Position numbers and translations under genes: made by a program. Under the pieces are notes generated by a model. It worked only from the letters and a program-made list of their open reading frames with translations, did no database searches and was not told the origin of the DNA. Source: Alteromonas stellipolaris (lineage in GTDB: Bacteria; Pseudomonadota; Gammaproteobacteria; Enterobacterales; Alteromonadaceae). Taken from it: a stretch of DNA of 64,000 bases. Shown here in pieces: positions 47,031-64,000 of this stretch (position 1 is the stretch's first letter; each line of letters opens with the position of its first letter). The stretch lies in NCBI RefSeq assembly GCF_001562115.1, contig NZ_CP013926.1, forward strand, positions 2,170,001 to 2,234,000, written 5' to 3'.

Positions 47031-47031
47031 C

Positions 47032-47430: not shown

Positions 47431-47441
47431 AATATCTCTCT

Positions 47442-47966
47442 CTAATGATGTGGCAGGCTATCAACTAACCCTTCGCGTGCCAGCTTCACTTTCGCTTCAA
47501 GACGAGAACTGATGAACAGTCCAGAAAGCGCGGCTACCATTCCGGCCATAGTCGGAACTGTTGCCATGGAGATACCAGCAGCCATTAAACGTGCATTGCT
47601 GGTGCCTTGTGTCGCCATCGTCTCGAAAACACCGATCATACCGGTTACTGTTCCCAGTAGCCCGATTAACGGACACATTGCAATAATGGTGCGAATAATC
47701 AGCATTCTTGCGTTCAGGTCATCTGACGCTTGAGAAATCCACGCGTCACGGATTCTATGCGCATACCAAGATGTGGTATCTGCTCGGGCATCCCAATTTT
47801 TGATGATGTTTTTCTTCACCGTTGGAAAGACCGAGGTTAAATACCAATAACGCTCAATCATTAAAACCCACATGAGAAAGAGCGCGGCAGCAACGAAATA
47901 AAGTACGTCACCACCGGTAGCGATAAAATCCCTGACCGATTCTATTAATCCAATCAGGTAATTCAT
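47442..47966 (-). CDS. exbB: ExbB proton channel subunit (MotA/TolQ/ExbB family)
   Basis: A 174-aa protein with three membrane helices (about 19-37, 100-120 and 135-155). The conserved GLLGTVTGMIGVFETMA region and TVPTMAGMVAALSGLFISSRLE are ExbB/TolQ landmarks. It pairs with ExbD. It starts 1 bp after the ttpC stop. Confidence 0.93.
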   Translation of the reverse strand: MNYLIGLIESVRDFIATGGDVLYFVAAALFLMWVLMIERYWYLTSVFPTVKKNIIKNWDARADTTSWYAHRIRDAWISQASDDLNARMLIIRTIIAMCPLIGLLGTVTGMIGVFETMATQGTSNARLMAAGISMATVPTMAGMVAALSGLFISSRLEAKVKLAREGLVDSLPHH

Positions 47967-47967
47967 T

Positions 47968-49326: not shown

Positions 49327-49332
49327 TAACAA

Positions 49333-50103
49333 TTACTCCGCTGCACTAATTGGTAGTTTGATCAGGTCCGCAGGAATGACGTTATTAGCCATTTTAACTG
49401 CGTCAACAACTGAAGACAGATATTCGTCGCCAAGTTGCTCCCATGCGCGGCTTTCATTGTTCCATGCCCAAGCGTGTTCTTGATCAAGAGACAATGCAAC
49501 TAGTGCAGTACGACCTAGGTTAAAGAAGTCAACAGTCACTTCAGTGCCGTTGCTATCGATAGTACCTTGGTAAGAGTTGATCTTAGTGCCGTACTCAACT
49601 TCAACCAAGTATGCTTCGATTACTTGGCGGAACTGTTCTGAAACAGTTACGTTAGAGTTAGACATAACATCACGTAAACGCTGAACACGCTCTAGACGCT
49701 CGTCTAAGTGAATAGGACGGTCAAGTTTGATGAATTTCTCAAGACTATCGATCATGCGGAACATAAGAGGAACGATGCCCTGCTTAGTTTGCTCGATGCT
49801 GTCAATCTGACGTTGCAAAGAGTCAATTCCACGTTGTTGATCTGCTACAAGACTCGCAATGTAGTCATTGTATATTTTGAGGTTTTCTGTCTCATCTACT
49901 GTTTGACGATACTCAACCAGTAATTCTTGAGACTGTTCAAACAACGTGTTGATTTTTTCCTGAGATTTCGCTGCAGCCGCGTGGATTTTCGCTTCTTCTT
50001 TATGAAGGTCATCAAGCGTATCTGCAGAGACTGCACTACCTGTTAGTGCGAAAGCACCGATAACAGTAGAAGCAATAAGAGTTCTCTTGCTCATTTTGGA
50101 CAT
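49333..50103 (-). CDS. DUF3450 periplasmic protein of the TonB2 operon
   Basis: About 256 aa. A signal peptide (cleaved near VSAD) is followed by a helical, coiled-coil region (about 30-105: EEAKIHAAAAKSQEKINTLFEQ) and an alpha/beta C-terminal part with GTIDSNGTEVTVDFFNLGRTALVALSLD. This is the DUF3450 family, regularly first in TtpC-ExbB-ExbD-TonB operons. A TTG three codons upstream extends the frame, but the ATG at 50103 with GGGAAC just before it is preferred. Function unknown; it may contact TtpC in the periplasm. Confidence 0.86.
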   Translation of the reverse strand: MSKMSKRTLIASTVIGAFALTGSAVSADTLDDLHKEEAKIHAAAAKSQEKINTLFEQSQELLVEYRQTVDETENLKIYNDYIASLVADQQRGIDSLQRQIDSIEQTKQGIVPLMFRMIDSLEKFIKLDRPIHLDERLERVQRLRDVMSNSNVTVSEQFRQVIEAYLVEVEYGTKINSYQGTIDSNGTEVTVDFFNLGRTALVALSLDQEHAWAWNNESRAWEQLGDEYLSSVVDAVKMANNVIPADLIKLPISAAE

Positions 50104-50754
50104 AGTTCCCAACCAAATTTCTTATTTGAATCCTCGCCGATAAAGGAAAACAGTTCGGGCAAGGGGCGTATTAAACTTTCACAATTATGTTTTAGGAATG
50201 TAGTACGGACCTTAGCTTCCAGTACTACGAACGTATTATACTCACACGGATTACAGCACTGAGTCAAGTAACACCCTGTTTACACCAAGTAGATTTTTCA
50301 TCATCTGTTTAATATACGTTCGAATTCTCCTGCAGAATTCATTCCAACGTACAAATAACTGGCAGATACGGGGTGTTTTTTTTGTCTATGAGCAAAAATA
50401 AACCCTTTTTTTACTTAGCGTTATATCAAAATTTTGAGGTGAAACGCCGCAATTTCATTCAAAGTCTGATACAAGGTTCAACTTCGTTACTTAAGATTCA
50501 AAGTAATCACTTTTTGTTAACTTCTCATGGCCATAATTTGCTGGGCAAACCATAAAACGAAAGCACATGCAGTATTCCTACAGATGAAAGGTTTCATTTT
50601 GGTGCAGCAATTCACTAAATGTTATCGCCATGCCACATTTAAGATGTAAGCGCTCTTTTTCTTAATTGGATTTTTGCCGTCTATAGGTGTTAGGTATAAT
50701 TGCTAAACGCTATAGGATAAACTAAATAAAAAAATGAATTATCGGGATTAATTT
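50104..50754. other. Divergent intergenic region, no supported gene
   Basis: 651 bp between the TonB2 operon and a plus-strand 2OG oxygenase. It holds their promoters, which I could not place with confidence, a GTAGTAC-N15-GTACTAC inverted repeat (about 50201-50229) and AT-rich DNA. A 60-codon plus frame at 50373-50555 has no ribosome binding site or recognisable sequence and is not called. Confidence 0.5.
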
Positions 50755-51315
50755 ATGACGTATGAAGCTACACATTCCGTATCAATAGACAATAAACCAC
50801 TTTGGATTTTTGACGGCTTATGCTCTTCGCAAGAAGCACAGGGGATTTTTAATGGTTTGGAAGCTAGTGCTTTCAAACGCAATGAAATTGCACGTCCCGA
50901 TACGAAAGAGTTTCGCCATTGGGCAGTTAATCTATCAGGCGCTCAAATACAAAGCCTACCCGTCTACAACCGCGCCATAAGTGCGGTGCAAGCCCTTACT
51001 GGCAAAACATATAAAGCGTATAGAGGCTACGTAAATCACGCTTCTTTCGGTGACATGCTTTTTACTCACACTGATTGCATGCCTGGCGCTGACGAATTAA
51101 CTGTACTCGTTTATATTTCGCCTACGTGGGATATAGAATGGGGTGGAGAAACCATGTTTTTCAATGAACATGATGATTGCTTATTCGCGTGTACACCAAA
51201 ACCCGGTCGAGTCAGTATCTTCCATGGTGCCATTAAACATGTAGGCAGACCGCCTAACCGTATCTGTTACACACCAAGGTATACATTGGCGTTTAAACTT
51301 GAATTGGCCAGCTAA
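50755..51315 (+). CDS. 2OG-Fe(II) oxygenase, prolyl-4-hydroxylase-like
   Basis: A 186-aa soluble protein. The 2OG-oxygenase double-stranded helix is seen as LFTHTDCMPGADELTVLVYISPTWDIEWGGET (His-x-Asp), GRVSIFHGAIKHVG (distal His) and RICYTPRYTLAFKLE (2OG-binding Arg). This is the P4H/2OG-FeII_Oxy_3 type, which hydroxylates amino-acid side chains in peptides. It is convergent with a TPR-2OG oxygenase and is the plus-strand member of the oxygenase cluster. Confidence 0.8.
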   Translation: MTYEATHSVSIDNKPLWIFDGLCSSQEAQGIFNGLEASAFKRNEIARPDTKEFRHWAVNLSGAQIQSLPVYNRAISAVQALTGKTYKAYRGYVNHASFGDMLFTHTDCMPGADELTVLVYISPTWDIEWGGETMFFNEHDDCLFACTPKPGRVSIFHGAIKHVGRPPNRICYTPRYTLAFKLELAS

Positions 51316-51416
51316 TCATTAGTGCTATTTATTCACTGTGAAGACAGGCACCTGAACGTTAAAGGCGTTTACCCAAAGTAGCATAGGCATCGCTCTGTTT
51401 AATCAAACATCCCAAG

Positions 51417-53219
51417 CTAATGACTTGGGATGATATCAAATGCAACCGTGAGTCTAGCGGTACTGCTCGTAAATGCATTGGTTCCATGCCACATGTATGA
51501 AGGAAACAAGACAAGATTACCCGACTTCGGCTTCACTGCAAAGTCTCCTTCAAAATTTTGATTTGCTATGTCAGCTCTACCGAAAGTTAGCCAACCTTCG
51601 CCATTGTTGTGAACCGCGTTAGGAACATCTACATAATACACGCCACTCAACCACCCCTCAGGATGATAATGGGAACGATGATATCCATCGGTACGTAACT
51701 TTACAGACCAAGAACCCTTAAATGTTAGATCCTTACTTAAACGAGATAAGAAAGGATGTTTTCTATCTTTGCTTTGCAACTCTATGAACTCTTGAGCTCT
51801 TTCTAAAATGAGACTCGACAGCGTGTTTATTACTTCGTTCTTTCCATCAAAGAGATTTTCATAGGTCTGAGTACCATTTCTTAATGATTGCCCGATTGGA
51901 TGGCGTTCATTTTGGTGCAAAGCTTCTAGCACGTCACGTAATTCATCATTTAAGTTCTGTCTCTTCTCTTTGCTCGGAAGCACTGGCATTACGGCCAATA
52001 ATTGCTGATAGTTACACAGCCAATGATATTTATTTTCTTCATTTAACAGGCAATAGCAGGTAGAAAGCATGGTCCACCACCCCTGATTACGCGGCTCTTG
52101 TTTCACTAATTTTGAAAATTTTGTGAGGGCTTCTTTTGCTCTACCTAAACTTAGTAAGGTATATCCCGCCTCACTCTCAAGTCCTATGGTATTGTTTATT
52201 TTTAGCTTTTCGCCTTTCTCAACATAGTCTAGCGATGCGTCATAGTCCCCTAACTCTCGATGTACGCGTGCTTTATATATATACAAATCGAGATTAGAAC
52301 GTAATAGGTGTTCTTGACTATTAAGTACATCAAGCGCTTTTTGAAATTGGTCTGCCCGAACTAATAGCTTTATGTAGGCTAAGACAAATGCCGCATTAGC
52401 ATCTTCATGATTGATATGAGGCTCGATATACTCAAAAGGAGATTCAACACCTTCTTCCCATAAAAAAGCAGCGAGCTCTTCTTGTGCTGTCCAATCTAAG
52501 GGGGTTAATGATACTGCGTCGATAAAACACTGTTTGGCTTCTTCGCGGCGATTTAGTAACACCAAAGTTGCAGCTAAATTTCGTCGTAAAGTACTGTTAG
52601 TCGGTTGTAGCTTTATTGCGGCTTCAAAACGCTCAGCTGACGCTTTAAAGTTATTATCCCGTCTTAGCACGTTACCTAAATTATTTAATGCAACAACGTT
52701 TGCTGGGTCTCGTTCTAATACAGACGTTAAACACTTTTGTGCTTTTTCTAAAGCGCCCAAGTTAGTGTGTATATCTGCAAGATGAATGCTTGCCTGGCTA
52801 TACGTCGGCTTTTTACGAATCACATCGACAAAGATGCTTTCAGCTTCATTAAATAAGCCAACTTCTTTATACGCTCTGGCAAGATTATATTTAACTTCTA
52901 TATCAAGAGGGTTTGCTGACAGAGCTTTTTTAAATGATTGCACCGCATTTTTTGCCTTCCCCAGTTCCAGCTGTGTGGTACCCAAGCTGTTGAGTAATTG
53001 AGGGCTTCCTTTGAATGTTTTTAGCCCTTTTATGACTACTGATTCTGCGCGCGTTCCATTTCCCACCTTCCGAAGGGCGCTTGAATATACCTGAATAGCA
53101 ACAGGATCAAGCTTTAAGATGGTATTGTTGGCTTCTATAAATTGTATAACGTAGTTGAACTTTCCTTGTTGAAAAGCATTAACAACTTGCCGTAATAAAA
53201 CCATTTTATCAACCGCCAT
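51417..53219 (-). CDS. TPR-repeat protein with C-terminal 2OG-Fe(II) oxygenase domain
   Basis: A 600-aa fusion. Residues 1 to about 420 are TPR helices (for example PQLLNSLGTTQLELGKAKNA and VVALNNLGNVLRRDNNFKAS). Residues about 455-600 are a 2OG-FeII_Oxy_5-type domain with SHYHPEGWLSGVYYV (His517/His519), GWLTFGRAD, LVLFPSYMWHGT (His578) and RLTVAFD (Arg589). The TPR part probably holds a peptide substrate. It starts 2 bp after the Asp/Asn hydroxylase gene and is cotranscribed with it. Confidence 0.83.
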   Translation of the reverse strand: MAVDKMVLLRQVVNAFQQGKFNYVIQFIEANNTILKLDPVAIQVYSSALRKVGNGTRAESVVIKGLKTFKGSPQLLNSLGTTQLELGKAKNAVQSFKKALSANPLDIEVKYNLARAYKEVGLFNEAESIFVDVIRKKPTYSQASIHLADIHTNLGALEKAQKCLTSVLERDPANVVALNNLGNVLRRDNNFKASAERFEAAIKLQPTNSTLRRNLAATLVLLNRREEAKQCFIDAVSLTPLDWTAQEELAAFLWEEGVESPFEYIEPHINHEDANAAFVLAYIKLLVRADQFQKALDVLNSQEHLLRSNLDLYIYKARVHRELGDYDASLDYVEKGEKLKINNTIGLESEAGYTLLSLGRAKEALTKFSKLVKQEPRNQGWWTMLSTCYCLLNEENKYHWLCNYQQLLAVMPVLPSKEKRQNLNDELRDVLEALHQNERHPIGQSLRNGTQTYENLFDGKNEVINTLSSLILERAQEFIELQSKDRKHPFLSRLSKDLTFKGSWSVKLRTDGYHRSHYHPEGWLSGVYYVDVPNAVHNNGEGWLTFGRADIANQNFEGDFAVKPKSGNLVLFPSYMWHGTNAFTSSTARLTVAFDIIPSH

Positions 53220-53221
53220 AA

Positions 53222-54196
53222 CTACCCTAAGCCACGATCTAAATTCATAAGCTTACCAGCCCCTTCGTTCCATTTAGATAATATGGACATAAACTGGGTT
53301 ATTGCTTGCCTTTCATTGAGAGACAATGACGGATTCCAAACATCAAGTATTAATACTGCCCGCTCTTTGTCCGATAAATTAGACGCGGAATGTACGAAGC
53401 TATCGTCAAAAACCAAATGTTTATTAGACTCACACCAATGAAAAGTTTCCCCCCCGACCGTTAAGCTTGCTTTTTCACTAACCTGCAAGGGAATGTGGAC
53501 AGTCAGCTTACAATTTGAAATCCCGTAATGCGGCGGTATGTAAGCACCAGCTTTAAGCACCGAAAGAAACATCTCTGGGGCATGCGGAGGACAAAAGGCT
53601 AAAGGTGCGTTATCAAGCACACTACTTAACGGCACAGATAAATCCTGCATTGCTTTGCAGCGTTTACCTTCCTTTAACAGATGAGTAGATAGCCATTCAT
53701 CACGTAGTTTATTCCATGTCTCAGTGGCTGGTACATTATCAAACTCACCGACATATTTAACTTCTGCACGTTTCCCGATGTTGAGTAGTTCATCTTCATG
53801 ACCTTGAAGTTTATCTATCCAATCGGTTAACCCATCAATTTCACTTGCATCGTAAAAGGGTTTACTCGGTAAATCAGGAATGTAAAAGAAACTCGGTTGC
53901 TGAAGTTTATTTTGAAAAGGGTGGAATTCGAGGCCAAAAAAGAGCGCGAGGGATTTTTTCAATCTCGGTGACACTGACTCCATGAATTGAAGCCGAGTAT
54001 AGCCATCTCTTCGAGCTAAGTTAGCTGCATTTTTAATATGAGAAAAACGTGGCCGCGTCATTTCTCCTGATTTGGGGTCAAGATAATCTGAATTTTGACT
54101 ATTTAACGTAACATATAAGGAAAGTGCTTGGTCAAAATGTCCTTTCGATAACATTTTCTCAATTTCATCGAGGGTCGATTTATATAAAGGTGTCAT
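53222..54196 (-). CDS. Aspartyl/asparaginyl beta-hydroxylase-like oxygenase
   Basis: A 324-aa protein. The N-terminal about 100 residues are helical and unassigned. The C-terminal part is of the Asp_Arg_Hydrox family: MFLSVLKAGAYIPPHYGISNCKLTVHIPLQV (first His), GGETFHWCESNKHLVFDDSFVHSASNLS (distal His) and a following RAVLILDVWNP (2OG-binding Arg). Relatives hydroxylate Asp, Asn or the free amino acids. It is directly upstream of the TPR-2OG gene. Confidence 0.82.
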   Translation of the reverse strand: MTPLYKSTLDEIEKMLSKGHFDQALSLYVTLNSQNSDYLDPKSGEMTRPRFSHIKNAANLARRDGYTRLQFMESVSPRLKKSLALFFGLEFHPFQNKLQQPSFFYIPDLPSKPFYDASEIDGLTDWIDKLQGHEDELLNIGKRAEVKYVGEFDNVPATETWNKLRDEWLSTHLLKEGKRCKAMQDLSVPLSSVLDNAPLAFCPPHAPEMFLSVLKAGAYIPPHYGISNCKLTVHIPLQVSEKASLTVGGETFHWCESNKHLVFDDSFVHSASNLSDKERAVLILDVWNPSLSLNERQAITQFMSILSKWNEGAGKLMNLDRGLG

Positions 54197-54249
54197 TGAA
54201 AACCTGAGGTAAAAGGAGCTGCGTAAAAACGTCAGCTCCGTTTATTATT

Positions 54250-54531
54250 CTAATTGTCTGAACCTGATGTTTCGGTACCACGTTGCATACGTATCCAACC
54301 TTCTCGAGACGCTTCTTCCATACGTTCTCTTTCTTCTACTGTATAACAAACACGACGCATCATGTTAGAACCAATTCGCTTTTCCATTTTACAAATTTGA
54401 TCATCACGCTCTTGATTGCTAGCTATCTCTTCAGTTTTATTGGTAGCTACTGCTGCAGTTTTATTACTTGTAGAGCCGCAACCCACCAAAGTGGCAGAAA
54501 TAGCAAGACTGACTAAAATCGTTTTAAACAT
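54250..54531 (-). CDS. Small lipoprotein with a conserved Cys-pair motif
   Basis: A 93-aa protein: signal peptide and lipobox LVGC (Cys18), a Ser/Thr/Asn linker, then ICKMEKRIGSNMMRRVCY and VEERERMEEASREGWIRM. Two cysteines (in ICK and RVC) about 15 apart with charged helices are the pattern of a widespread small lipoprotein family of unknown function. It may be outer-membrane anchored. It is the second gene of the P4H-lipoprotein-hydroxylase run. Confidence 0.72.
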   Translation of the reverse strand: MFKTILVSLAISATLVGCGSTSNKTAAVATNKTEEIASNQERDDQICKMEKRIGSNMMRRVCYTVEERERMEEASREGWIRMQRGTETSGSDN

Positions 54532-54555
54532 TTATAAATCCTTATTCAAAGTTTA

Positions 54556-54615
54556 TTGGGTTAAAGTTCCGTAGGTTAAAGTACCGTAGGTTTAATTTCC
54601 GTGGGTTAAAATACC
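54556..54615. repeat. Four 15-bp tandem repeats at the 3' end of the P4H gene
   Basis: On the minus strand the units read GGTATTTTAACCCAC, GGAAATTAAACCTAC, GGTACTTTAACCTAC and GGAACTTTAACCCAA. Read in the P4H frame they encode GILTH, GN-stop, GTLTY, GTLTQ. The current stop lies in the second unit; the last two units remain in frame behind it and end at a TAA. Confidence 0.85.
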
Positions 54616-55728
54616 ATACTGTGTCTGGTGAATTCTTATCCATTTTGTAAGCGTCCATTTCTCACCGTTAGCCACTGGCGCGCCAAGGTGCAGACTCAAT
54701 TTTAGTATCTCATTATTTTCATCAATATTTTTAAAAGAAACAATGGTTCCCTGTTCAGGCTTTATTTTAACGTCTATTTTCGGGAAATGTGTTTCGCCGT
54801 CACTACTCATAGAATTCAAATACGCAAGGACGGTGTGAGCCCGTTGCCCCCCTTCCTCAATTAGCTCAGTTTGTTGGCACTGTTTATGAGAAAAAGCATC
54901 ATAATGCGCTTTGTATTCTTGGCCTTTTTGGTAGCGCAATAAATTCAAAGGCTCACCATGGGATGTTTTAGTTTTTGAGATATTTGCCATTCGTGTATCT
55001 ATATCTCTCACAATCCAATCTGCCATTTCAGACAAAATAACGCCAACGTCACTTGTGCGGATAGAATCTACCAAAGGACTTCCATCTGCAGGGTTAGCTA
55101 CCATGGAGCGGGTTAACAGTGGTATAAAACGTTGCTGTAAATAACGACACTCAAATGCTGACAATGCATTTTTAACACGAACTAATGATATATCTTCGTT
55201 AAGCATTTCATGTTCAAGTGAGCGTAATTTTGCTTCTCGAGCTCGAATAGCACGTTCAATACTACTTTCATCCAAAGGCTCAAGAGACGTACTTACCAAC
55301 ACTCTGTCATCGTTAACAAGTTGCCGGTAAATATTCGGAGACAACTTCGCCATAACACTGACAATTTGAAGATATACTTTTTCCTCTTCAGAGCACCAAC
55401 AAGATAGCACTAGCAAAGATTCTGCATGTCCACTCTGCGCTAAAGCTACAAGTTCACTTATGACGCTGCGACTAAAGTTTTCTTCAACATAGAATCGAGT
55501 GATTAGCGCCGTGTGATATCGCACCGTGGGATGCTGAGCATTTGGGATAGACTGAAGATAAATAAGTGCAAATTTTGCGTCACTACGCACCTTATAATAG
55601 GCAAAATCTAAGGCAGCATAAATGTTGCCTAGTTTACCGGCTTCACCAAGCAATGCCATAGACTTATCAATGGCGCCTTGCTGTTGATGATACTGAGCCT
55701 GGTCAAGCAACTGCTGTACTGAATTCAC
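54592..55728 (-). CDS. Prolyl-4-hydroxylase-type 2OG-Fe(II) oxygenase with helical N-terminus
   Basis: A 378-aa protein. The N-terminal half (about 1-190) is a helical repeat region (Sel1/TPR-like: QLLDQAQYHQQQGAIDKSMALLGEAGKLG). The C-terminal domain is P4H-like: LLRYQKGQEYKAHYDAF (His-x-Asp), VLAYLNSM, GETHFPKID, GTIVSFKN and LSLHLGAPVANGEKWTLTKWIR (distal His, Lys for 2OG). It follows the receptor gene terminator. The C-terminal five residues are encoded by a tandem repeat that also creates the stop codon. Confidence 0.83.
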   Translation of the reverse strand: MNSVQQLLDQAQYHQQQGAIDKSMALLGEAGKLGNIYAALDFAYYKVRSDAKFALIYLQSIPNAQHPTVRYHTALITRFYVEENFSRSVISELVALAQSGHAESLLVLSCWCSEEEKVYLQIVSVMAKLSPNIYRQLVNDDRVLVSTSLEPLDESSIERAIRAREAKLRSLEHEMLNEDISLVRVKNALSAFECRYLQQRFIPLLTRSMVANPADGSPLVDSIRTSDVGVILSEMADWIVRDIDTRMANISKTKTSHGEPLNLLRYQKGQEYKAHYDAFSHKQCQQTELIEEGGQRAHTVLAYLNSMSSDGETHFPKIDVKIKPEQGTIVSFKNIDENNEILKLSLHLGAPVANGEKWTLTKWIRIHQTQYGILTHGN

Positions 55729-55740
55729 AATTTACCCTCA

Positions 55741-55768
55741 TAAAAAAGGCCTCATAAGAGGCCTTTGT
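55741..55768 (-). terminator. Intrinsic terminator after the TonB receptor gene
   Basis: Minus-strand AAAGGCCTC-TTAT-GAGGCCTTT followed by TTT. It ends the receptor transcript. Confidence 0.85.
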
Positions 55769-55791
55769 AAAATGCAATTAAATGCCTGTGC

Positions 55792-58629
55792 TTAGAAGTC
55801 TACGTTAATACGACCGTAGAAGAAACGTCCAGGAATTTCATACATTGAAGGATCGAAGCTGTTTGCAAATGTAGTGTAAGAAATTTCAGGATCTGCATCC
55901 CACAAGTTGTTAACACCAAATGTCAAACGAAGGTTCTCTGTTACTGAGTAACCTACTGAAGCGTCATGGTAAGCCATCGCATCAAGTTCGTTGAAGCTGT
56001 CTTTAGACTCAAGACTTCCATCTTCAGCAAACACGCTTACGCCTGGATCACTACACAATGTATCTTCTAGGTAGTTACCTGCATCATCTGTATCGTCATC
56101 GAATGAACATGCTTCGGTAGTTCCGCCAATGAAGCGAACTAGGTAGTTAGCAGTCCAATCTTCGTATGCCCAAGTAACAGATAGGTTAGTACGGATACGA
56201 GGAATAACGTCACGGTCAAATGCTTTACCAGCATCGTTCTCTGAGATTGACTCACCTGTTACAGGGTCAACAAAGATACTAGTACGCTCGTCTACATAAG
56301 TACCGTCCCAGTTTACTCGGAAGTCACCGTATTCAGTGTCGAAGTTATACGCTACGTTATAATCGAAACCAGATGTCGTTTGACCACCAAGGTTAACAAG
56401 GCCGTTGAACAACTCAGTTACAACACCGCCGCTATTACGTTCGATTAGAGAACAGAAAGTAGTACCAGTAGTTGCACAAGCATCTAGGATACGTTGAGCA
56501 CCAACGGTTGATACTGCGTTGTCCACTTCAATGTCGAATACGTCAAATGTGATTGACAGACCTTCAACTTGAGCTGGTGAGTATACGAAACCATATGTAA
56601 AGCTTTCTGCTTCTTCAGGTGCTAAATCTGCATTACCACCAACCGTAGTTCTGATCTGAGGGTTAGGTTGCTCGTAAGCAGCAGGAATACCAGCACAGCC
56701 AGGGCTGTTGGCATTTGCAGCTTCACCGCCATTACATGGATCGATTAGCGTTGCGAAACTGTCGCTGTTACCTAGGAACAATTCAGATAGCGAAGGTGCA
56801 CGGAATGCTTCAGACCATGTACCACGAACTAATACGTCTTCATTGATGCGCCATTTCAAACCAACTTTTGAGTTTGTAGTGTCGCCGAAGTTGCTGTAGT
56901 CAGAGTAACGAGTAGCAAGTTCTAAATCTAATTGCTCAATAAACTCAACATCTGAGATAAGAGGGATAGCAACTTCTAAGTAAACTTCTTCAACACTGAA
57001 TGAACCAGAAGTAGGTTGACGAGAGTTACCAGAAGTAATACCAGCTGCAATTAATGCATCAGGTTGGTCGTAACCTGACTGCCAGCGTTTTTCGTAACCA
57101 GCAGCAAATGCAAGATAACCAGCAGGTAGTTCAAAAACTTCACCTGAGATATTTGCTGAGTAACTTTCTAACGTAGAGTTAGCTGCATCTTGTGCAGTAA
57201 ACTGAATGTAATCAAGCATTTCTTGCGTGATTGTACCTTCGCCGATAGCAGTCGCACCACCGAAGAAGTTTAATGGCACACAACCATCAGTAGCAGCACA
57301 GGTATCAACGTCACCCAAGGCTAGTGCTACGCGGTCCATGTTAAGAAGACCGTCAGTTAGCGTATTCTGAGTAATGTCTGCATACGTGTAAGTTGCATCC
57401 CAGTAGTACTCTTGGTCGCCCAGTTCAATAACACCGTCAAAGCCACCATTGAATTGGAACTGATCAACGTTTTGAGCAAATTCACGGTAACCCGCTTCCA
57501 TCATACGACGGCCAGCGAAGAACAAGCTGTTCGCTTCACCGAAACCAGCAGTGTCGGTTAAATCAAGACCTGTTGGGTTATAAGGGTTATTTGCAGCAAT
57601 TGTTACACCAGATGTACCTGCAGCGTTACCGATAAATAAAGGTGTTGGAGCAAGAAGCTGTGAAGAACGTCTGTTGCCGTAGAAACCAGTTACGTTAACA
57701 GAAACGTTATCTGTTAATTCGTAACGACCTTGTGAGTAAAGGTTAATACGCTCTTGAGGAGTAGAAAGGTAGTTAAGAGGTGCAAAGTTAAATGCACTGC
57801 TACCAGTCCAAGGAATCAATCCGCCTTGACCATCGTTTTGAACGTTGAATGAAGTAGCTTCATCATCGAAATACCAAAAACGACCATTAGGAGTACCTGA
57901 TGAACCGCCGTAGCCAGTAGGAGCACCAAATACTGGTACTGCAGAAATCTCACGATCTCCTGCGAATGTTGGCTCTTCTTCTACGTAACTTACGTTGAAG
58001 TATACGTTACCTCTGTCATTAGCAACACCGAAACCGATATCCCACGATTCTTTGTTACCGTCGCCTTCATCGTATTGACCAAGGTAGCCAGAAGCGTGAA
58101 CGCCTTCAAAATCTTGACGAGTGATAATGTTCACAACACCTGCAACAGCATCTGAACCATATACCGCTGATGCACCGTCTTTAAGTACTTCGATACGCTC
58201 GATGATAGAAGAAGGAATGTTGTTAAGGTCAACAGAACCGGTAAGGCCTGGAGCCCAACGTTTACCGTTTACAAGAACAAGAGTACGGTTAGAACCGATA
58301 CCACGAATGTTAATAGTAGTTGTACCATTACCACCGTTGTTGTTATTGGTGTTGATTGCTGAACCAGCAGATGGGATAGCTTGAAGTACGTCACCGATTG
58401 AAGTGATACCGAATTTTTCGATATCTACACGAGTCATAACCGTTACTGGGTTAGCACCTTCGATGTCTGTACGACGGATACGAGAACCAGTTACTTCGAT
58501 TTTTTCAACAGAATCGGCTGCTTCTTCGGCTTCTTGTGCAGCAACTGCACCAGAAAAACCTATCGTCGACACCGCGCCGAACGCGCAGGCCAACCTAACT
58601 GACTTAGCCAGCTTAGAATTTGTAAACAT
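55792..58629 (-). CDS. Large TonB-dependent receptor (945 aa)
   Basis: Outer-membrane receptor. The signal peptide MFTNSKLAKSVRLACAFGAVSTIGFSGAVAA is followed by a TonB-box-like SVEKIEVTGSRI, the plug domain (about 55-175: NPVTVMTRVDIEKFGITSIGDVLQ, VLVNGKRWAPGL, IERIEVLKDGASAVYGSDAVAGVVNIIT) and a long barrel ending FFYGRINVDF. Two internal cysteine-rich loops (CAATDGCVPLNFFGG) occur. The PNPxV/ADSVEK type is common in Alteromonadales for peptides, glycans or chitin oligomers; the substrate is unknown. A terminator follows directly. Confidence 0.9.
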   Translation of the reverse strand: MFTNSKLAKSVRLACAFGAVSTIGFSGAVAAQEAEEAADSVEKIEVTGSRIRRTDIEGANPVTVMTRVDIEKFGITSIGDVLQAIPSAGSAINTNNNNGGNGTTTINIRGIGSNRTLVLVNGKRWAPGLTGSVDLNNIPSSIIERIEVLKDGASAVYGSDAVAGVVNIITRQDFEGVHASGYLGQYDEGDGNKESWDIGFGVANDRGNVYFNVSYVEEEPTFAGDREISAVPVFGAPTGYGGSSGTPNGRFWYFDDEATSFNVQNDGQGGLIPWTGSSAFNFAPLNYLSTPQERINLYSQGRYELTDNVSVNVTGFYGNRRSSQLLAPTPLFIGNAAGTSGVTIAANNPYNPTGLDLTDTAGFGEANSLFFAGRRMMEAGYREFAQNVDQFQFNGGFDGVIELGDQEYYWDATYTYADITQNTLTDGLLNMDRVALALGDVDTCAATDGCVPLNFFGGATAIGEGTITQEMLDYIQFTAQDAANSTLESYSANISGEVFELPAGYLAFAAGYEKRWQSGYDQPDALIAAGITSGNSRQPTSGSFSVEEVYLEVAIPLISDVEFIEQLDLELATRYSDYSNFGDTTNSKVGLKWRINEDVLVRGTWSEAFRAPSLSELFLGNSDSFATLIDPCNGGEAANANSPGCAGIPAAYEQPNPQIRTTVGGNADLAPEEAESFTYGFVYSPAQVEGLSITFDVFDIEVDNAVSTVGAQRILDACATTGTTFCSLIERNSGGVVTELFNGLVNLGGQTTSGFDYNVAYNFDTEYGDFRVNWDGTYVDERTSIFVDPVTGESISENDAGKAFDRDVIPRIRTNLSVTWAYEDWTANYLVRFIGGTTEACSFDDDTDDAGNYLEDTLCSDPGVSVFAEDGSLESKDSFNELDAMAYHDASVGYSVTENLRLTFGVNNLWDADPEISYTTFANSFDPSMYEIPGRFFYGRINVDF

Positions 58630-58692
58630 GTGTTGTCTCCCTGGACCACTAAAGCTTGTTTAGTGTGTATTTCTAAAATCGTTTATAACGAA

Positions 58693-58731
58693 TTATTATT
58701 AGTAAGGTCAAAGCCTCACTAAGATAATAAA
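58693..58731. promoter_or_regulatory. Imperfect long inverted repeat upstream of the receptor gene
   Basis: TTATTATTAGTAAGG is followed by 6 nt and CCTCACTAAGATAATAA, an imperfect palindrome over 39 bp in the 300-bp gap before the receptor. It may be an operator or a 5' UTR hairpin. Nothing else is evident in this gap. Confidence 0.35.
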
Positions 58732-58929
58732 CACAACAAGCGTAAACGGTCAACTGAGATCGGGAGTGGAATAATTAAAAGTTCAATTTTTTTCGTTTAT
58801 TTTTCCTTTTTCTGTAAATGTTTACTTACAATTTACATAAGAACTACATTTCGCTGTGCATTTTTCAAGCAACACTGACGAAACGTCATATTTACACGAT
58901 AAGATACACAAATTTGATTAAAAGACTTT

Positions 58930-60390
58930 TTACAGATTCCTATAAAGTTCTTGAAATGGTTCTGGAATAGTAAAGGTATGAGTATTTATCTTGTTAAGCG
59001 GCTGCCTAATTTGAGACATACTTGCAGTTTTTACAACTGTCGGCGTTTTATGGAAATATGTGTGATTGTTTTCGTAATTTAGACCAATTGAATTAAATAC
59101 TCTGTGGAGCACTAATTCAGGTTCTGCCTTCAACGCTTCGAGTTCAACCAGCTCTATTTTGATAATCGTTTGTAGTTTCTCTATTGCTTTATTGTCCATT
59201 TGAATCGCTCGCTTAACTGAGGGAACGTCAAAAGACCAATGCAAATTGCTGCTAAAAAAGGTTTTGTAGATTGACCATGCATTCTCAAGCTCGTTTCGCC
59301 TAGTCGCGATAAATTTAGCGTTAGGAAAGACTCGCTGTATCATCAAAACAATATGACTGTTGTTTAAACTTTTATTGACGCATACGTTTTCTGTACACCC
59401 TAACTCTCTCGCAATCCGCTCGTACTCTTTTGCAATTGCTTTTAGTTCAACTTTTTGACAATTGAGTATGGTGTCTAAATCGTAAGCTGAATTTTTCTTT
59501 TTAAGTACTGTGTCACAGGCAATAGTAAATGCATCCGTTTCACCAACTGAGCTAACACCTTTATCTGAGCACAAAATATTGTTCAACAAGGTGGTACCAG
59601 AACGGGGTAGTCCCATTATAAATACTGGCGTGAAAGCATTCGATGTTAATGCATTCGATGTAAAGCTACTCTGCTCAGTATCGCTTTCAGTATCTTTTAA
59701 TACCTTGGTAATTTTTGTGTAGTTCGCATCTATGTTGAAAGTCGTTGTGGGGGCATTTGAGTTTGTGATTTGCCTCATAGCATTTGCTGATTTCTCATAA
59801 AAAACGAACGCGCTTTTCTCATCACCATTTAACCAATTTACATTTCCCATAGCGTTTAGAAAGCAAGCTTTAGATACATTGTTAGGCAACTGATTAAATT
59901 TTACCGTTTGCGCACTAATAAAATTTTGAAAATCAGGTTGAGCGATCACATTTTGCAGAGTTGATAGCATGTGCCACGCTTCGCCCGCTAAAGGTGCCTT
60001 TTCAACCACCTTTTTAAGCAATGTTTCTGCTTCTTCAAGTTCGCCTTTTTGATAAGCAAATACACCTGTGATATGAAGTGCTGCAACTGATGTCGGAGCC
60101 TTGTTCGCCCACTGTTTTGCGCTCTGGTATGCATCATCATCTTTACCACAATCGGCTAGCATGCCAAGTTGCTTTGCTATTGTCGTATCTTCACACTTTG
60201 ATTGATCTAGCATATGTAAACACTTAACAGCTAAATCATAGCATCCAACTGTCATCGCCAAACGCGCTACTCCTAACCAGTTTTCTTTGAGTTCTAACTC
60301 AGTATTCAAAAAACCGGTAATTAAAGAAACAACCAATGTTTGGTCCATTGCTCGCGTTGCGTGCACTAATTTCTGTAGTTCTAGTTTCAT
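58930..60390 (-). CDS. TPR-sulfotransferase fusion protein
   Basis: A 486-aa protein. Residues about 30-215 are TPR-like helices (SVAALHITGVFAYQKGELEEAETLLKKV). Residues about 255-486 are a sulfotransferase domain with the PAPS-binding loop FIMGLPRSGTTLL (PRSGTT at 262-267) and a later FPNAKFIATRRNELENAWSIYKTFF segment that supplies the 3'-phosphate contact. It transfers sulfate from PAPS to a hydroxyl, amine or tyrosine. It is between two receptor genes on the same strand and followed by its own promoter region for the first of them. Confidence 0.85.
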   Translation of the reverse strand: MKLELQKLVHATRAMDQTLVVSLITGFLNTELELKENWLGVARLAMTVGCYDLAVKCLHMLDQSKCEDTTIAKQLGMLADCGKDDDAYQSAKQWANKAPTSVAALHITGVFAYQKGELEEAETLLKKVVEKAPLAGEAWHMLSTLQNVIAQPDFQNFISAQTVKFNQLPNNVSKACFLNAMGNVNWLNGDEKSAFVFYEKSANAMRQITNSNAPTTTFNIDANYTKITKVLKDTESDTEQSSFTSNALTSNAFTPVFIMGLPRSGTTLLNNILCSDKGVSSVGETDAFTIACDTVLKKKNSAYDLDTILNCQKVELKAIAKEYERIARELGCTENVCVNKSLNNSHIVLMIQRVFPNAKFIATRRNELENAWSIYKTFFSSNLHWSFDVPSVKRAIQMDNKAIEKLQTIIKIELVELEALKAEPELVLHRVFNSIGLNYENNHTYFHKTPTVVKTASMSQIRQPLNKINTHTFTIPEPFQELYRNL

Positions 60391-60400
60391 ATGCCTAAAT

Positions 60401-60427
60401 AAAAGCCCAGCATGAGCTGGGCTTTTT
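60401..60427 (-). terminator. Intrinsic terminator after the Oar-like receptor gene
   Basis: Minus-strand AAGCCCAGC-TCAT-GCTGGGCTT followed by TT. It lies between the receptor and sulfotransferase genes. Confidence 0.85.
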
Positions 60428-60440
60428 CATTACTCAATTA

Positions 60441-63413
60441 TTAAAATGTAACTTCAACACTGAAACGCACGTAACGTGGCGTTTGGAAAGAAGTTGGTAG
60501 GCCATAACTAGGGTTAGATTCACCGCGAGCAATATAGCCAAATGGAGCAAATTGTTCTCCGTCCTCATATCCTGATAGTCGTTCATTAACTTCATTCAAT
60601 TGTGTTGCTTCATCATTATTGAACACATTGAAGATATCAGCACGAAGAGCAATATCAGCTTCTTCAAGTTCTATCAAATATTTAGCGCTTAAATCAAGGT
60701 TCCAAACATTTGGTGTTCTACCTTGAGAGCCACGAGGAGCAATCTCACCTTCATAAACGAATGATTCTGCATCATATAGAGACGCAAATACATCAGTTGG
60801 GTGGTAACCAAATGAGCTTAGTGGGCGGCCCGATGTCCAACGGAAATTAGCGCCTAACGAGAAATTTTCTGTTAATTGATACGCACCATTTAATTTAAAT
60901 GAGTGGCGACGATCATTAGGAAGATTACCAGAAGCTCCGTTCGTTAACCCTGGTTGGTCAAAGTTAGTCGTTAATCCAGAATCGTCCTGATCATTGTCTG
61001 AACGAACGAAACCTTCATTGTTGCCCCAACTATGGCTCCACGTATAGGTAAAGCTCATCATCCACACGTCATCCCATGCACGGTCGACAGTGAAATCAAC
61101 AGAAGCATATTGGCGCTCCGCTTCAGGATAACCTAGCATATCTGCAGGAATAGTATATGTTCCAAAAGGAACTGGGCCGTCACCATCTGGATCAGTAGTG
61201 ATTGTTACATCGTTGCCCGGGTTGGTTAGCACGTAGTAGTGGAAGCCAGAGTCACACATAGTACAAGAGGAACCAAACTCTTGCTCAATAAACTCGTTAA
61301 AGCCTGCATCAATTGCAATGTCTTCTAGTGAACTACCAAGGTCACGGTAAGTGGCTTTAACACCAAAGCTCCATGATTCATTAAGTACTTGCTCGTAACC
61401 AAGTATGAATTCATCTTGATACATTGGGTCTAAATCGGCATTAACCGTTTCTGTTGTGCTCTTGAGTGTGCCATCAGAGTATACCGTCATGCCACCAACC
61501 TCATCACCTAGTACTGGTGTGAAATCAGCGTTAATTGACTCTACTTCATAGTACTGTCGAGTATAAAGTTCATCACCCGCTAAACGGATGTTTGTATTTG
61601 TCGCAACTGGAAGGTAGTAACGACCATAGTTAGCAAAAATTTTGCTTTCGCCATCACCTTTAACGTCCCAACTAAGCCCTAGACGAGGAGCCCACTGGTC
61701 AGTAACGTCAACAAATTTATCACCTGCTTTGTTGTAGTTTTCAAAGCTCTCATTACGCAAGCCGATACGTGCTGTAATATTATCAGTTACGGTCCAAGTA
61801 TCTTCGATATAGTACGCGAAGCTTTTCGTTTCAAAATCGCCTTGGTTTATGTAGTACTCTTGACGAACTAAGCAATCTTCGTTTCCTGCTTCATCAAGAT
61901 TAGCACCACAGTTTTCATAGCGATAGGCTACACCACCGGCTCTTTGAGTATTTTCAGACGCTTCTAGATCTTCGTTATCCACACCAAATTTCAACACGTG
62001 GTCAGCATTGACATACCATTCAACATCAAAACGAATAGCTGTACGCTTATCTTCTTGAATAGAAGGTGTAGCTAAACCGTATGCGCCGTATTCGACATTT
62101 GTAAATCTGTCGAAAATAACAGGAGCATCACCAAGCGGATTACTTCCATCATTTAAATTACTGTAGCTTGTTTCGTTAATTGAGTATTGGGTGCTAATAG
62201 TAATATCATCGGTAATAATACCTGTGTACTGAATACCCCAAGTTTTACCACCTCGCTCTAAGGTATAATTACCTAAAGAGTTTCCTACTTCATCTGAATC
62301 AGGGCTGTATAAGAACTTTTCAGATTCAAGCTCTTCGGTATTGTCCCATGCTGTAATTTCTAGGATGTGCTCTGGCGTAATGTACCAGTCGAGCTTTGCA
62401 CTTAGTAATGTATCGTTACCTTCGCGATCATAAATTACTGCAGTATCACCATAATCTCTTTGACGAAGTTTTTGGTTAATTAAACCGAAAAAGAAAAGCT
62501 TATCTTCAACAAGTGCGCCGCTAGCCCACAAGTTTACATTTGTTTCACTGCGCTCATCTTCTTTGAATACTTCATAATAAGCTGTTCCTGCTTCGTCAGC
62601 ATCAGCCTGGGTTCTATAAAAGACGTCAGGGCTATGTGCTCTTAACGCAGCTGGCTCGTAGTAAGCGCTCGCGCCCCACTTAAATTCGTTGCTACCACTC
62701 TTCGTTCTTGCGTTAATAACACCGCCCGTAGAACGGCCATATTCAGCAGAGTAGCCACCTGTCTTCACTTCAAACGATTCATACATTTCAAATGGAAGTT
62801 CAGAACCACCAAGACCGTTTCTGAAGTTAGTTACGTTAATACCATTTACGTAATAAACGTTTTCACCTACAGATGAACCACCAAAGGAAGCATAGTTCCC
62901 GAAGTCGGAGTCACCAGATACCGTACCTGGCGCTAAAAGCGCGACAGAAGCGATATCACGTGGCACAGGAACTTTTGCAATGAAATCTTGGTCTACATAA
63001 AGCTGTGATTCGCTTGAAGTAACATCAATATTCGAAATTGACGTTCCGCTTACTGAAATTCGCTCAATATCCCCAGATTCTAATGCCACATCTAAGTTAG
63101 TTCTTCCTGATGGACGCACTGTAAATTGCTTTTCCTGAGCAACTGTAAACCCAGCTTTTTGAGCTGAAAGGCTGTATTGGCCTGGTGGTAACAATGGAAA
63201 AGTGAATCGTCCATCTGAATCTGTCACAACACTACGTGTTAGACCTGTTTCAAGGTTGATAATTGTGACTTCAACATCACCAAGTAATTGGTTAGTACTT
63301 GCAGAAACAGAGGTACCAACAATAGTACCTTTTGACTCTTGTGCGAATGAAGGTGCAGCAACACCTAAAGACGCTGCTACAGCTAATGCTGTGAGCGTTT
63401 TATTATTTATCAT
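60441..63413 (-). CDS. Oar-like TonB-dependent receptor with N-terminal carboxypeptidase-regulatory-like domain
   Basis: A 990-aa outer-membrane receptor. A signal peptide (cleaved near SFAQ) is followed by an Ig-like CarboxypepD_reg domain (about 28-110: GDVEVTIINLETGLTRSVVTDSDGRF, PPGQYSLSAQKAGF), a plug with a PRDIASVALLAPG segment and VYYVNGINVTNFRNGLGGSEL, GVINARTKSGSNEFKWG, and a long barrel ending RYVRFSVEVTF. The layout is that of Oar/OmpA-related receptors, often found with secreted peptidases or peptide uptake. It is the largest protein here and adjoins a TPR-sulfotransferase. Substrate unknown. Confidence 0.9.
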   Translation of the reverse strand: MINNKTLTALAVAASLGVAAPSFAQESKGTIVGTSVSASTNQLLGDVEVTIINLETGLTRSVVTDSDGRFTFPLLPPGQYSLSAQKAGFTVAQEKQFTVRPSGRTNLDVALESGDIERISVSGTSISNIDVTSSESQLYVDQDFIAKVPVPRDIASVALLAPGTVSGDSDFGNYASFGGSSVGENVYYVNGINVTNFRNGLGGSELPFEMYESFEVKTGGYSAEYGRSTGGVINARTKSGSNEFKWGASAYYEPAALRAHSPDVFYRTQADADEAGTAYYEVFKEDERSETNVNLWASGALVEDKLFFFGLINQKLRQRDYGDTAVIYDREGNDTLLSAKLDWYITPEHILEITAWDNTEELESEKFLYSPDSDEVGNSLGNYTLERGGKTWGIQYTGIITDDITISTQYSINETSYSNLNDGSNPLGDAPVIFDRFTNVEYGAYGLATPSIQEDKRTAIRFDVEWYVNADHVLKFGVDNEDLEASENTQRAGGVAYRYENCGANLDEAGNEDCLVRQEYYINQGDFETKSFAYYIEDTWTVTDNITARIGLRNESFENYNKAGDKFVDVTDQWAPRLGLSWDVKGDGESKIFANYGRYYLPVATNTNIRLAGDELYTRQYYEVESINADFTPVLGDEVGGMTVYSDGTLKSTTETVNADLDPMYQDEFILGYEQVLNESWSFGVKATYRDLGSSLEDIAIDAGFNEFIEQEFGSSCTMCDSGFHYYVLTNPGNDVTITTDPDGDGPVPFGTYTIPADMLGYPEAERQYASVDFTVDRAWDDVWMMSFTYTWSHSWGNNEGFVRSDNDQDDSGLTTNFDQPGLTNGASGNLPNDRRHSFKLNGAYQLTENFSLGANFRWTSGRPLSSFGYHPTDVFASLYDAESFVYEGEIAPRGSQGRTPNVWNLDLSAKYLIELEEADIALRADIFNVFNNDEATQLNEVNERLSGYEDGEQFAPFGYIARGESNPSYGLPTSFQTPRYVRFSVEVTF

Positions 63414-63740: not shown

Positions 63741-64000
63741 CTATTGTAAATAAAACCCTAACCTGCGTTTTACCGATTCAGGCAATTCTGGAAGTGAACT
63801 TTTTGGTAAAAGGAACGTAGCCATGTTGAAAAAGTCTAAAAATATCCTGTTTGATTCAGTGGTTTTCTTCAAATAATGATGGCCAGATGACCCTCCAGTT
63901 CCTATTTTAGTACCCAGCATTCGTTGCACCATCATGGCATGGCGATAACGCCACAACGTTAATTGCTCATCTATTTCTGTTAGCGCAGTAATAAGTTGGA
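63741..64000 (-). CDS. kynA: Tryptophan 2,3-dioxygenase (C-terminal part, runs beyond window)
   Basis: The minus-strand frame is open from the right edge to the TAG at 63741. It reads QLITALTEIDEQLTLWRYRH, then MMVQRMLGTKIGTGGSSGHHYLKK, which is the conserved haem-proximal and substrate-binding C-terminal part of tryptophan 2,3-dioxygenase (R and GTGGSSG). The enzyme opens the indole ring to N-formylkynurenine in the kynurenine pathway. It is a true partial gene: the frame has no stop up to base 64000. An apparent start at 63956 is an internal TTG. Confidence 0.92.
   Translation of the reverse strand, partial: QLITALTEIDEQLTLWRYRHAMMVQRMLGTKIGTGGSSGHHYLKKTTESNRIFLDFFNMATFLLPKSSLPELPESVKRRLGFYLQ

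Follow-up and report, generated by a model that had tools for sequence, protein, structure and literature searches.

Marine bacteria carry large numbers of TonB-dependent receptors in their outer membrane, many of them with no known substrate. As far as the excerpted text of PMC6957404 describes it, the TonB2 operon of Vibrio vulnificus, which serves iron uptake, has six genes, with ttpB2, encoding a DUF3450 protein, in first place, ttpC2 in second and ttpD2 last, after tonB. The human hydroxylase AspH, according to the excerpts of PMC6817910, binds its protein substrate by a tetratricopeptide repeat (TPR) part and has only two iron ligands. Here we analyze a locus of Alteromonas stellipolaris that joins a TonB operon to outer-membrane receptors and putative modifying enzymes. 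It lies in contig NZ_CP013926.1 (assembly GCF_001562115.1), positions 2,170,001 to 2,234,000; this whole stretch of 64,000 nucleotides is called the window below and numbered from its first base. The open reading frame (ORF) list and Pfam matches resolve two receptor-enzyme modules. Module B (45151-58629) holds a TonB receptor of 945 amino acids (aa), a prolyl-4-hydroxylase (P4H)-like 2-oxoglutarate (2OG) oxygenase, SEL-2OG, a lipoprotein, an Asp/Asn-hydroxylase-like oxygenase (AspH), an oxygenase with TPRs (TPR-2OG), a small oxygenase facing them and a complete TonB operon. Module A (58930-63413) consists of a TPR-sulfotransferase and an Oar-type receptor of 990 aa.

Our principal finding is that the enzyme set at this site follows the type of the receptor and not the TonB operon, and the partnership of the enzymes with the receptor is well supported. 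The reading that we prefer, with a probability of roughly 0.4, is that module B is a TonB transport locus of the TtpB-TtpC-ExbB-ExbD-TonB-TtpD type with a cytoplasmic protein modification dedicated to its receptor, and that module A works alike.

The locus was compared across 118 genomes of the family, drawn evenly from a larger group, and each oxygenase was searched in all of them. A DUF3450 match was present in 118/118 genomes, and the DNA upstream of it was read in 101 (100 and the window's own), with the encoded proteins grouped by BLAST. A receptor of the module B type (group f4) stands upstream of DUF3450, the arrangement of the TonB3 form, in 53 of these 101 loci. At least one enzyme lies between the f4 receptor and DUF3450 in 47 of the 53, versus 3 of the 48 loci without an f4 receptor, 9 of these 48 stretches being no longer than 15 kb. 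The three comprise a sulfotransferase between two Oar-type receptors (G004), a SapC protein with an Oar-type receptor (G048) and a third locus (G012) taken up below. All four oxygenases occur together in five of the 118 genomes, namely the window's, three of genus g12 and one of g33; in the four others the three larger oxygenases are 30-43% identical to the window's and the receptor 68-73%. A further genome (G083) has the small oxygenase, with the other oxygenases not nearby. The preliminary description of this DNA had named lack of co-occurrence as the finding that would speak against a common system; the set recurs in related genomes.

Over the 53 receptor loci, enzyme-set distance correlates with receptor distance at r = 0.52 and with DUF3450 distance at r = 0.10. 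Partial Mantel coefficients are 0.51 over all 53 loci, 0.45 over the 26 that remain when each genus contributes a single genome and 0.53 over the 47 loci that hold enzymes, each at P = 2e-4, which is the floor of 5000 permutations. The enzyme set tracks the receptor type, not the TonB operon. For instance, three congeners of the window's strain (G024, G100 and G068) have DUF3450 proteins 85-92% identical to its own and receptors only 32-36% identical; G024 (92% and 32%) carries no enzymes, G100 carries TPR-2OG alone and G068 TPR-2OG with another oxygenase. A genome of another genus (G106), with 61% identity in DUF3450 and 69% in the receptor, has all four oxygenases. The site stays in place while the genes within it are exchanged. 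Of the 53 cassettes, 33 hold TPR-2OG, 24 the TPR-sulfotransferase, 21 a methyltransferase, 14 AspH, 8 another 2OG oxygenase and 5 each SEL-2OG and the small oxygenase; a lipoprotein was grouped in 10. One or two of the 53 loci each have an S9 peptidase, a SapC protein, a second type of sulfotransferase, or a radical-SAM protein together with a second methyltransferase.

A contig scan with the small oxygenase gave 49 named loci, in which genes were called by tblastn, the method relied on in GC-rich loci where gene picking was poor. Five of them belong to family-set genomes (L228, L229, L232, L233 and L235, corresponding to G011, G060, G094, G106 and G083). The small oxygenase lies near an f4-type receptor in 39 of the 49, across Alteromonadales, Rheinheimera, Natronospirales, Lysobacterales and other Gammaproteobacteria, and six of the ten receptor-less loci are contigs shorter than 8 kb. 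The 18 loci of Alteromonadales and Rheinheimera contain the receptor (16), SEL-2OG (16), AspH (15), TPR-2OG (15), the lipoprotein (15), DUF3450 (12), the Oar-type receptor (6) and the sulfotransferase (3). The 31 other loci, from Natronospirales, Lysobacterales with Rhodanobacteraceae, further Gammaproteobacteria and one bin labelled Cupriavidus, contain the receptor (23), the sulfotransferase (23), TPR-2OG (17), SEL-2OG (7), AspH (4) and DUF3450 (0). The lipoprotein was not found in these 31, its short query making for a weak search. In a receptor tree of 80 rows, the 32 placeable receptors beside a small oxygenase require 2 changes, compared with a mean of 25.3 after shuffling (0/500 as low), and one exception (G091) falls inside their clade. 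The receptors were sampled through the small oxygenase itself, the remaining ones came from one family, and the tree, quickly built, has several long branches; the small oxygenase is lastingly tied to one receptor clade across orders, although the tree does not give the strength of that tie.

Oxygenases of the same families located elsewhere do not share this neighborhood. None of 25 P4H-domain, 11 AspH and 4 TPR-2OG proteins lies beside a receptor of families f4 or f36, the only two considered, among the 30 best loci per search and within 1.5-kb flanks. At the thresholds used, the class-wide spread is narrow for the sulfotransferase (2/229 genomes) and TPR-2OG (3/229), the window's own being counted in each.

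The enzymes appear intact. Residues H105/D107/H162/R175 are invariant in the small oxygenase (31 sequences aligned), H275/D277/H347/K357 in SEL-2OG (14 sequences), which has the P4H-type HxD...H...K pattern, H223/H269/R279 in AspH (16 sequences), which has a two-His iron site and an Arg, and H517/H519/H578/R589 in TPR-2OG (16 sequences). These residues fit metal or 2OG binding, roles that we assume from general knowledge of the families. In the sulfotransferase, seven aligned rows representing six proteins all have a PRSGT or PRTGT loop and a glutamate, E284; we take the loop to bind 3'-phosphoadenosine 5'-phosphosulfate and E284 to be the catalytic Glu. Against two sister species, Alteromonas lipotrueae (L221) and Alteromonas sp. 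MMG017 (L222), the ratio of nonsynonymous to synonymous substitution rates (dN/dS) of the oxygenases is 0.01-0.14, and that of the sulfotransferase is 0.23 against the only sister species carrying it. The oxygenases are under purifying selection, and these ratios rule out diversifying selection as the source of rapid enzyme evolution. Synonymous rates (dS) of the four oxygenases are 0.55-1.34 versus 0.17 for the receptor, a gap for which recombination, or codon bias in a strongly expressed receptor, could account.

All eight genes of the preliminary description open where it had placed them and belong to the families it assigned, as the ORF list, Pfam and the retained active-site residues agree. 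It left out the TonB operon at 45151-50112, which belongs to the locus. The annotated features are as follows.

45151-46422, minus strand: TPR protein in the TtpD position (TPR families)
46419-47030, minus strand: TonB (PF03544)
47032-47430, minus strand: ExbD (PF02472)
47442-47966, minus strand: ExbB (PF01618)
47968-49332, minus strand: long MotA/TolQ/ExbB protein in the TtpC position (PF01618)
49333-50112, minus strand: DUF3450 protein in the TtpB position (PF11932, E 4.7e-87)
50755-51315, plus strand: small 2OG/Fe(II) oxygenase, 'FlmC-like' (PF13640, 2OG-FeII_Oxy_3, E 3e-8)
51408-51432, minus strand: terminator-like hairpin over the end of the TPR-2OG gene (weak; scan total no higher than in shuffles)
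51417-53219, minus strand: TPR-2OG oxygenase (TPRs and PF13759, 2OG-FeII_Oxy_5, E 1.5e-23)
53222-54196, minus strand: Asp/Asn-hydroxylase-like oxygenase, AspH (PF05118, Asp_Arg_Hydrox, E 7e-28)
54250-54531, minus strand: 93-aa lipoprotein with a conserved Cys-x6-GS[NRH]-x5-Cys motif (no Pfam family; lipoprotein signal by inspection)
54592-55728, minus strand: prolyl-4-hydroxylase-like oxygenase, SEL-2OG (PF13640, 2OG-FeII_Oxy_3, E 2e-13; N-terminal part without a Pfam match)
55792-58629, minus strand: 945-aa TonB-dependent receptor of module B (plug PF07715 and TonB barrel PF00593)
58724-58753, minus strand: sigma-70-like promoter upstream of the 945-aa receptor (10/12 matches; leader conserved as DNA)
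58930-60390, minus strand: TPR-sulfotransferase of module A (PF13469, Sulfotransfer_3, E 1.7e-21; weak TPR matches below cut-offs)
60441-63413, minus strand: 990-aa Oar-type TonB receptor of module A (PF13620 CarboxypepD_reg, PF25183 OMP_b-brl_4 and PF07715 plug)
63741-63998, minus strand: end fragment of tryptophan 2,3-dioxygenase (69-80% identity to relatives, one of which matches PF03301)

The Oar-type build, with a CarboxypepD_reg domain, a plug and a large barrel, is confined to the 990-aa receptor and is not shared by that of 945 aa. The name 'FlmC-like' is a label only, the best NCBIfam match of the small oxygenase (NF052475) scoring 129.6 bits against a cut-off of 240. On the minus strand, the successive gaps from the receptor through SEL-2OG, the lipoprotein and AspH to TPR-2OG are 63, 60, 53 and 2 bases, and from this layout the five genes probably form one transcript, whose end may be the hairpin at 51408-51432. 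A promoter scan of the whole region gave fewer sites than shuffled sequences. Tryptophan dioxygenase family genes flank 30 of the 101 family loci.

Two leaders are conserved as DNA. The leader of the DUF3450 operon (50113-50285) is about 83-86% conserved in four related species and 74% in two others without codon bias, and some 209 bases upstream of the 945-aa receptor are likewise conserved; a role of both in regulation is possible. Rfam searches at E <= 0.1 returned no match up to the gathering score, with three sub-threshold matches at a hairpin at 45.1 kb. The preliminary description had suggested a small peptide gene near 50.1-50.7 or 58.6-58.9 kb. No conserved peptide gene was found in the gaps when 31 small ORFs were compared with 15 related loci, matches in the two nearest loci (L221 and L222) not being listed. 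The one ORF with long conserved matches, at 50091-50267 (minus strand), lies in DNA conserved without third-position bias, and two short ORFs at 58.6-58.75 kb fall within the conserved leader of the receptor. On the small-ORF comparison and, for the ORF at 50091-50267, the absent codon periodicity, we reject a peptide precursor at these places.

Some further observations concern the cassettes and the lipoprotein. A family of about 250 aa without a Pfam match (f64) occurs in 4 of the 53 cassettes (e.g. L148:17129-17875), and an 842-aa radical-SAM protein with a methyltransferase precedes TPR-2OG in the cassettes of G075 and G033 (L159:12856-16336). A TauE/SafE gene of the sulfite exporter family lies upstream of the TonB operon in 28 of the 101 loci, 15 of them with an f4 receptor (e.g. 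L110:3019-3822). Proteins of 352 aa without a Pfam match stand among the enzymes in Natronospirales (L239:12151-13206) and Lysobacter (L262:10546-11601) and may represent a further enzyme family. In a genome of another family (L272, f18), TPR-2OG adjoins AspH, the short flank containing neither an f4 nor an f36 receptor. Two Rheinheimera loci (L235 and L236) have the small oxygenase alone, with no other module gene in 20 kb. The Cys-flanked GS[NRH] motif of the lipoprotein fits a loose pattern in 17 of 22 collected lipoproteins, and the same pattern appears in the first 90 residues of 50 of 53 receptors, in the TonB-box region (e.g. VTGSRI). The background was 14 matches in 487,208 residues for a pattern picked after viewing the sequences; the motif could be a TonB-box mimic, on resemblance only. 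A whole-database search with the lipoprotein returned 10 proteins, none with a named function.

The preliminary description had treated all of these genes as one cluster. The oxygenase-receptor set is indeed a real recurring unit, whereas the sulfotransferase and the 990-aa receptor form a separate module. Sulfotransferase matches, counted at E <= 1e-40, were found in 6 of the 118 family genomes, the window's own included, and an Oar-type receptor lies within 1.5 kb in all six. Only two kinds of site are involved: in the window and G004 the pair lies at the TonB-operon locus, and in the four other genomes it lies beside HSP33, the sulfotransferase facing the receptor and, in three of the four, separated from it by a DUF3016 gene. 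None of the four other full-set genomes has the sulfotransferase and the 990-aa receptor at the place where the window has them, and L221 has no sulfotransferase between its two receptors. G106 has another TPR-sulfotransferase, situated between the small oxygenase and TPR-2OG; two loci (G087 and the window) also have a sulfotransferase upstream of the f4 receptor. In Pseudoalteromonas, where 13 records matched, a TonB receptor is followed by a sulfotransferase in both regions examined; among the matches listed, the best for this receptor are distant f4 members and not Oar-type receptors. At the class-level match L270, the short flanks are free of f4 and f36 receptors. A single system of sulfotransferase and oxygenases is ruled out: the sulfotransferase goes with the Oar-type receptor and has its own history.

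Protein substrates are favored because the nearest solved relatives of three of the enzymes are P4H, human AspH and tyrosylprotein sulfotransferases (TPST). The nearest solved relatives of SEL-2OG are prolyl-4-hydroxylases (3itq, E 2.1e-27), and that of the window's AspH, which has no Pfam TPR match ahead of its oxygenase domain, is human AspH (5apa, E 7.8e-14). TPR proteins aside, the sulfotransferase profile matches TPST1 (5wrj, E 8e-13) and TPST2 (3e-10); with the single sequence as query, TPST1 is reached at E 0.006 only. Nothing better than a weak match, to the putative hydroxylase 9blq (E 0.014), came up for the small oxygenase, and the TPR-2OG profile matched TPR parts only among the best 60 of 432 rows. 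No EGF-like domain was found among the ten proteins scanned by Pfam, no genome-wide search having been made. None of the five enzymes has a clear signal peptide by hydropathy alone.

From these relationships we infer the following mechanism. One transcript would give the receptor, SEL-2OG, the lipoprotein, AspH and TPR-2OG, and the enzymes would hydroxylate a protein of the same block in the cytoplasm, before export. TPR-2OG would hold the substrate protein by its TPR part, the likeliest substrates being the receptor precursor or the small lipoprotein. The modified receptor would then work in the outer membrane, energized by the neighboring TonB operon, and in module A the TPR-sulfotransferase would act likewise with the Oar-type receptor. 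Somewhat doubtful, and offered tentatively, is the joint proposal that TonB receptors or a lipoprotein partner are, after translation and while still in the cytoplasm, hydroxylated and sulfated by receptor-specific exchangeable cassettes, so that the enzyme set would be a code travelling with the receptor type, and that such cassettes would be a bacterial counterpart of the eukaryotic protein hydroxylases and tyrosine sulfotransferases of the secretory pathway.

A number of results weigh against receptor-dedicated protein modification. The earlier suggestion of protein or peptide substrates is favored by the solved relatives, but both receptor tyrosine-sulfation tests were negative. Among 3935 column tests on the receptors for six enzymes, the filters used left no Y, S, T or W column associated with the sulfotransferase and none of any kind with TPR-2OG; the 103 candidate columns include 54 for SEL-2OG, 40 for the small oxygenase and 8 for AspH, with 0 for the sulfotransferase and 0 for TPR-2OG, and among the rows listed they rest on 1-3 independent pairs, so the column test had no power. 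Tyrosines in acidic context are not enriched in sulfotransferase-linked receptors (1.83 vs 2.67 per receptor, P 0.24; 9 vs 14 receptor clusters, 5 mixed ones excluded), and the 990-aa receptor has zero by the rule used. TPR-like parts, which the preliminary description saw in two enzymes, are clear by Pfam in TPR-2OG (51417), weak and below cut-offs in the sulfotransferase (58930) and found in no other enzyme. AspH has weak NCBIfam matches, far under cut-offs, to the lipid hydroxylases OlsC and LpxO, and after the TPSTs the sulfotransferase profile matches CurM of a polyketide pathway (E 9e-10).

The partnership itself has exceptions. Six of the 53 f4 receptors lack an enzyme, G012 has a sulfotransferase without either receptor family (f4 or Oar-type), and four loci (L235, L236, L246 and L258) have a small oxygenase and no receptor in at least 12 kb, being real exceptions or having the receptor further off. 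Four of the five sulfotransferase relatives occupy one HSP33 site rather than several, and the same leucyl aminopeptidase and alpha/beta-hydrolase genes flank both Pseudoalteromonas pairs. A Sphingomonas sulfotransferase match has no annotated receptor within 7 kb in an incomplete gene table, and of the three other TPR-sulfotransferases of the window's genome one lies beside a TonB barrel and two have none in their short flanks. Since receptor and enzymes are adjacent, co-transfer alone could also yield their correlation by linkage.

Physical linkage, together with fixed flanks around an exchanged interior, would likewise be expected if the enzymes were mere passengers without shared function, which recombination between the conserved flanks gathers and swaps along with the receptor. 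We regard this as quite improbable: in other orders, where the TonB operon is lacking (DUF3450 in 0/31), related receptors have the same enzyme families beside them, also in other orientations, the oxygenases are under purifying selection, and paralogues elsewhere are not beside these receptors. It is unlikely, though less so, that the receptor secretes or displays a protein or peptide encoded elsewhere, with the enzymes modifying this cargo in the cytoplasm. Such export would resemble that of PopC, for whose secretion the Myxococcus Oar and Ton system are needed in the excerpted account of PMC6434023; the module A receptor has an Oar-like build, and the Vibrio TonB3 operon starts with a receptor gene while TtpB3 and TtpD3 are not active in iron transport, according to the excerpts of PMC6957404. 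Yet no recurring cargo gene was seen in the locus, and the sole recurrent small exported protein, the lipoprotein, was missing from the 31 loci of other orders in the weak short-query search.

Import with processing, in which a peptide-like or aromatic compound enters through the receptor and is oxidized or sulfated by the enzymes in the cytoplasm, we likewise hold to be unlikely. An enzyme set tracking the receptor type is expected if each set fits a ligand, and the flanks offer tryptophan dioxygenase and amino-acid catabolic genes in many relatives, the TauE/SafE transporter gene in 28/101 loci and the leucyl aminopeptidase near the pair in both Pseudoalteromonas regions. The flank genes, however, are also found at receptor-less loci (TauE/SafE 13/28, tryptophan dioxygenase 6/30), a peptidase lies inside the cassette in only 2/53, and the closest solved relatives act on proteins. 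The enzymes could also tailor a small signal, a siderophore-like compound or a ribosomal peptide that the receptor re-imports, as in methanobactin loci, whose genome-mining paper contains the terms TonB-dependent and sulfotransferase in the portion covered (PMC3621798). Methyltransferase, radical-SAM and S9 genes in some cassettes would suit such production, which nevertheless has little probability in our estimate, as the small-ORF scan gave no precursor peptide in the window gaps, the leader is non-coding, and no scaffold enzyme or exporter is among the recurrent cassette families.

The preferred reading, modification dedicated to the receptor, competes with several others; more generally, the observations suggest chemical tailoring, by these bacteria, of the receptor or of something handled by it. 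In the open-licence literature on TonB receptors with sulfotransferase, hydroxylase, DUF3450, SapC, halogenase or protein modification, judged from titles and abstract starts of the papers listed (for halogenase with TonB the best 10 of 18, for protein modification the best 12 of 131), no such locus was recognized, in agreement with the preliminary description, which knew of no pathway with this set. The set is real and conserved, and the open-licence literature covered gave no description of it. Since the receptor type predicts a putative hydroxylase/sulfotransferase set, the scattered families annotated '2OG oxygenase' or 'TPR sulfotransferase' can be drawn together in a single testable hypothesis, one that mass spectrometry could read out directly in harmless marine bacteria. 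Modification of the receptor itself would add a new layer to the protein chemistry of the outer membrane; modification of the cargo would give a handle on what TonB systems of the TtpBCD type carry.

Module B agrees with the V. vulnificus TonB2 and TonB3 systems in the same six-gene order, with the positions of ttpB, ttpC and ttpD, and with TonB3 in a receptor gene at the operon start (PMC6957404, excerpts); the likeness is one of description, and unlike module B those systems come with no oxygenase, sulfotransferase, lipoprotein or TtpD TPRs in the excerpts. AspH and SEL-2OG resemble human AspH and collagen P4H by the sequence of their 2OG oxygenase domains. The human enzymes have TPR parts ahead of this domain, according to the excerpts of PMC6817910, whereas neither SEL-2OG nor the oxygenase at 53222 has a Pfam TPR. 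The former are eukaryotic and act in the lumen of the endoplasmic reticulum; the window's enzymes are bacterial, without a clear signal peptide, and are encoded beside a TonB receptor. Module A compares with Oar/PopC of Myxococcus xanthus in its Oar-type receptor with a Ton system, although the excerpts of PMC6434023 mention no modifying enzymes and export is a feature of the Myxococcus system. Its sulfotransferase compares with RaxST of Xanthomonas, a bacterial sulfotransferase discussed with tyrosine sulfation; RaxST is linked to a putative type I secretion system, and the excerpts mention neither TPR nor a TonB receptor (PMC4216712). Finally, FlmG of Caulobacter is a glycosyltransferase with flagellin as substrate and, in the portion of PMC7591256 covered, no TonB receptor, but it shares with the mechanism proposed here a TPR part that selects the protein to be modified in the cytoplasm.

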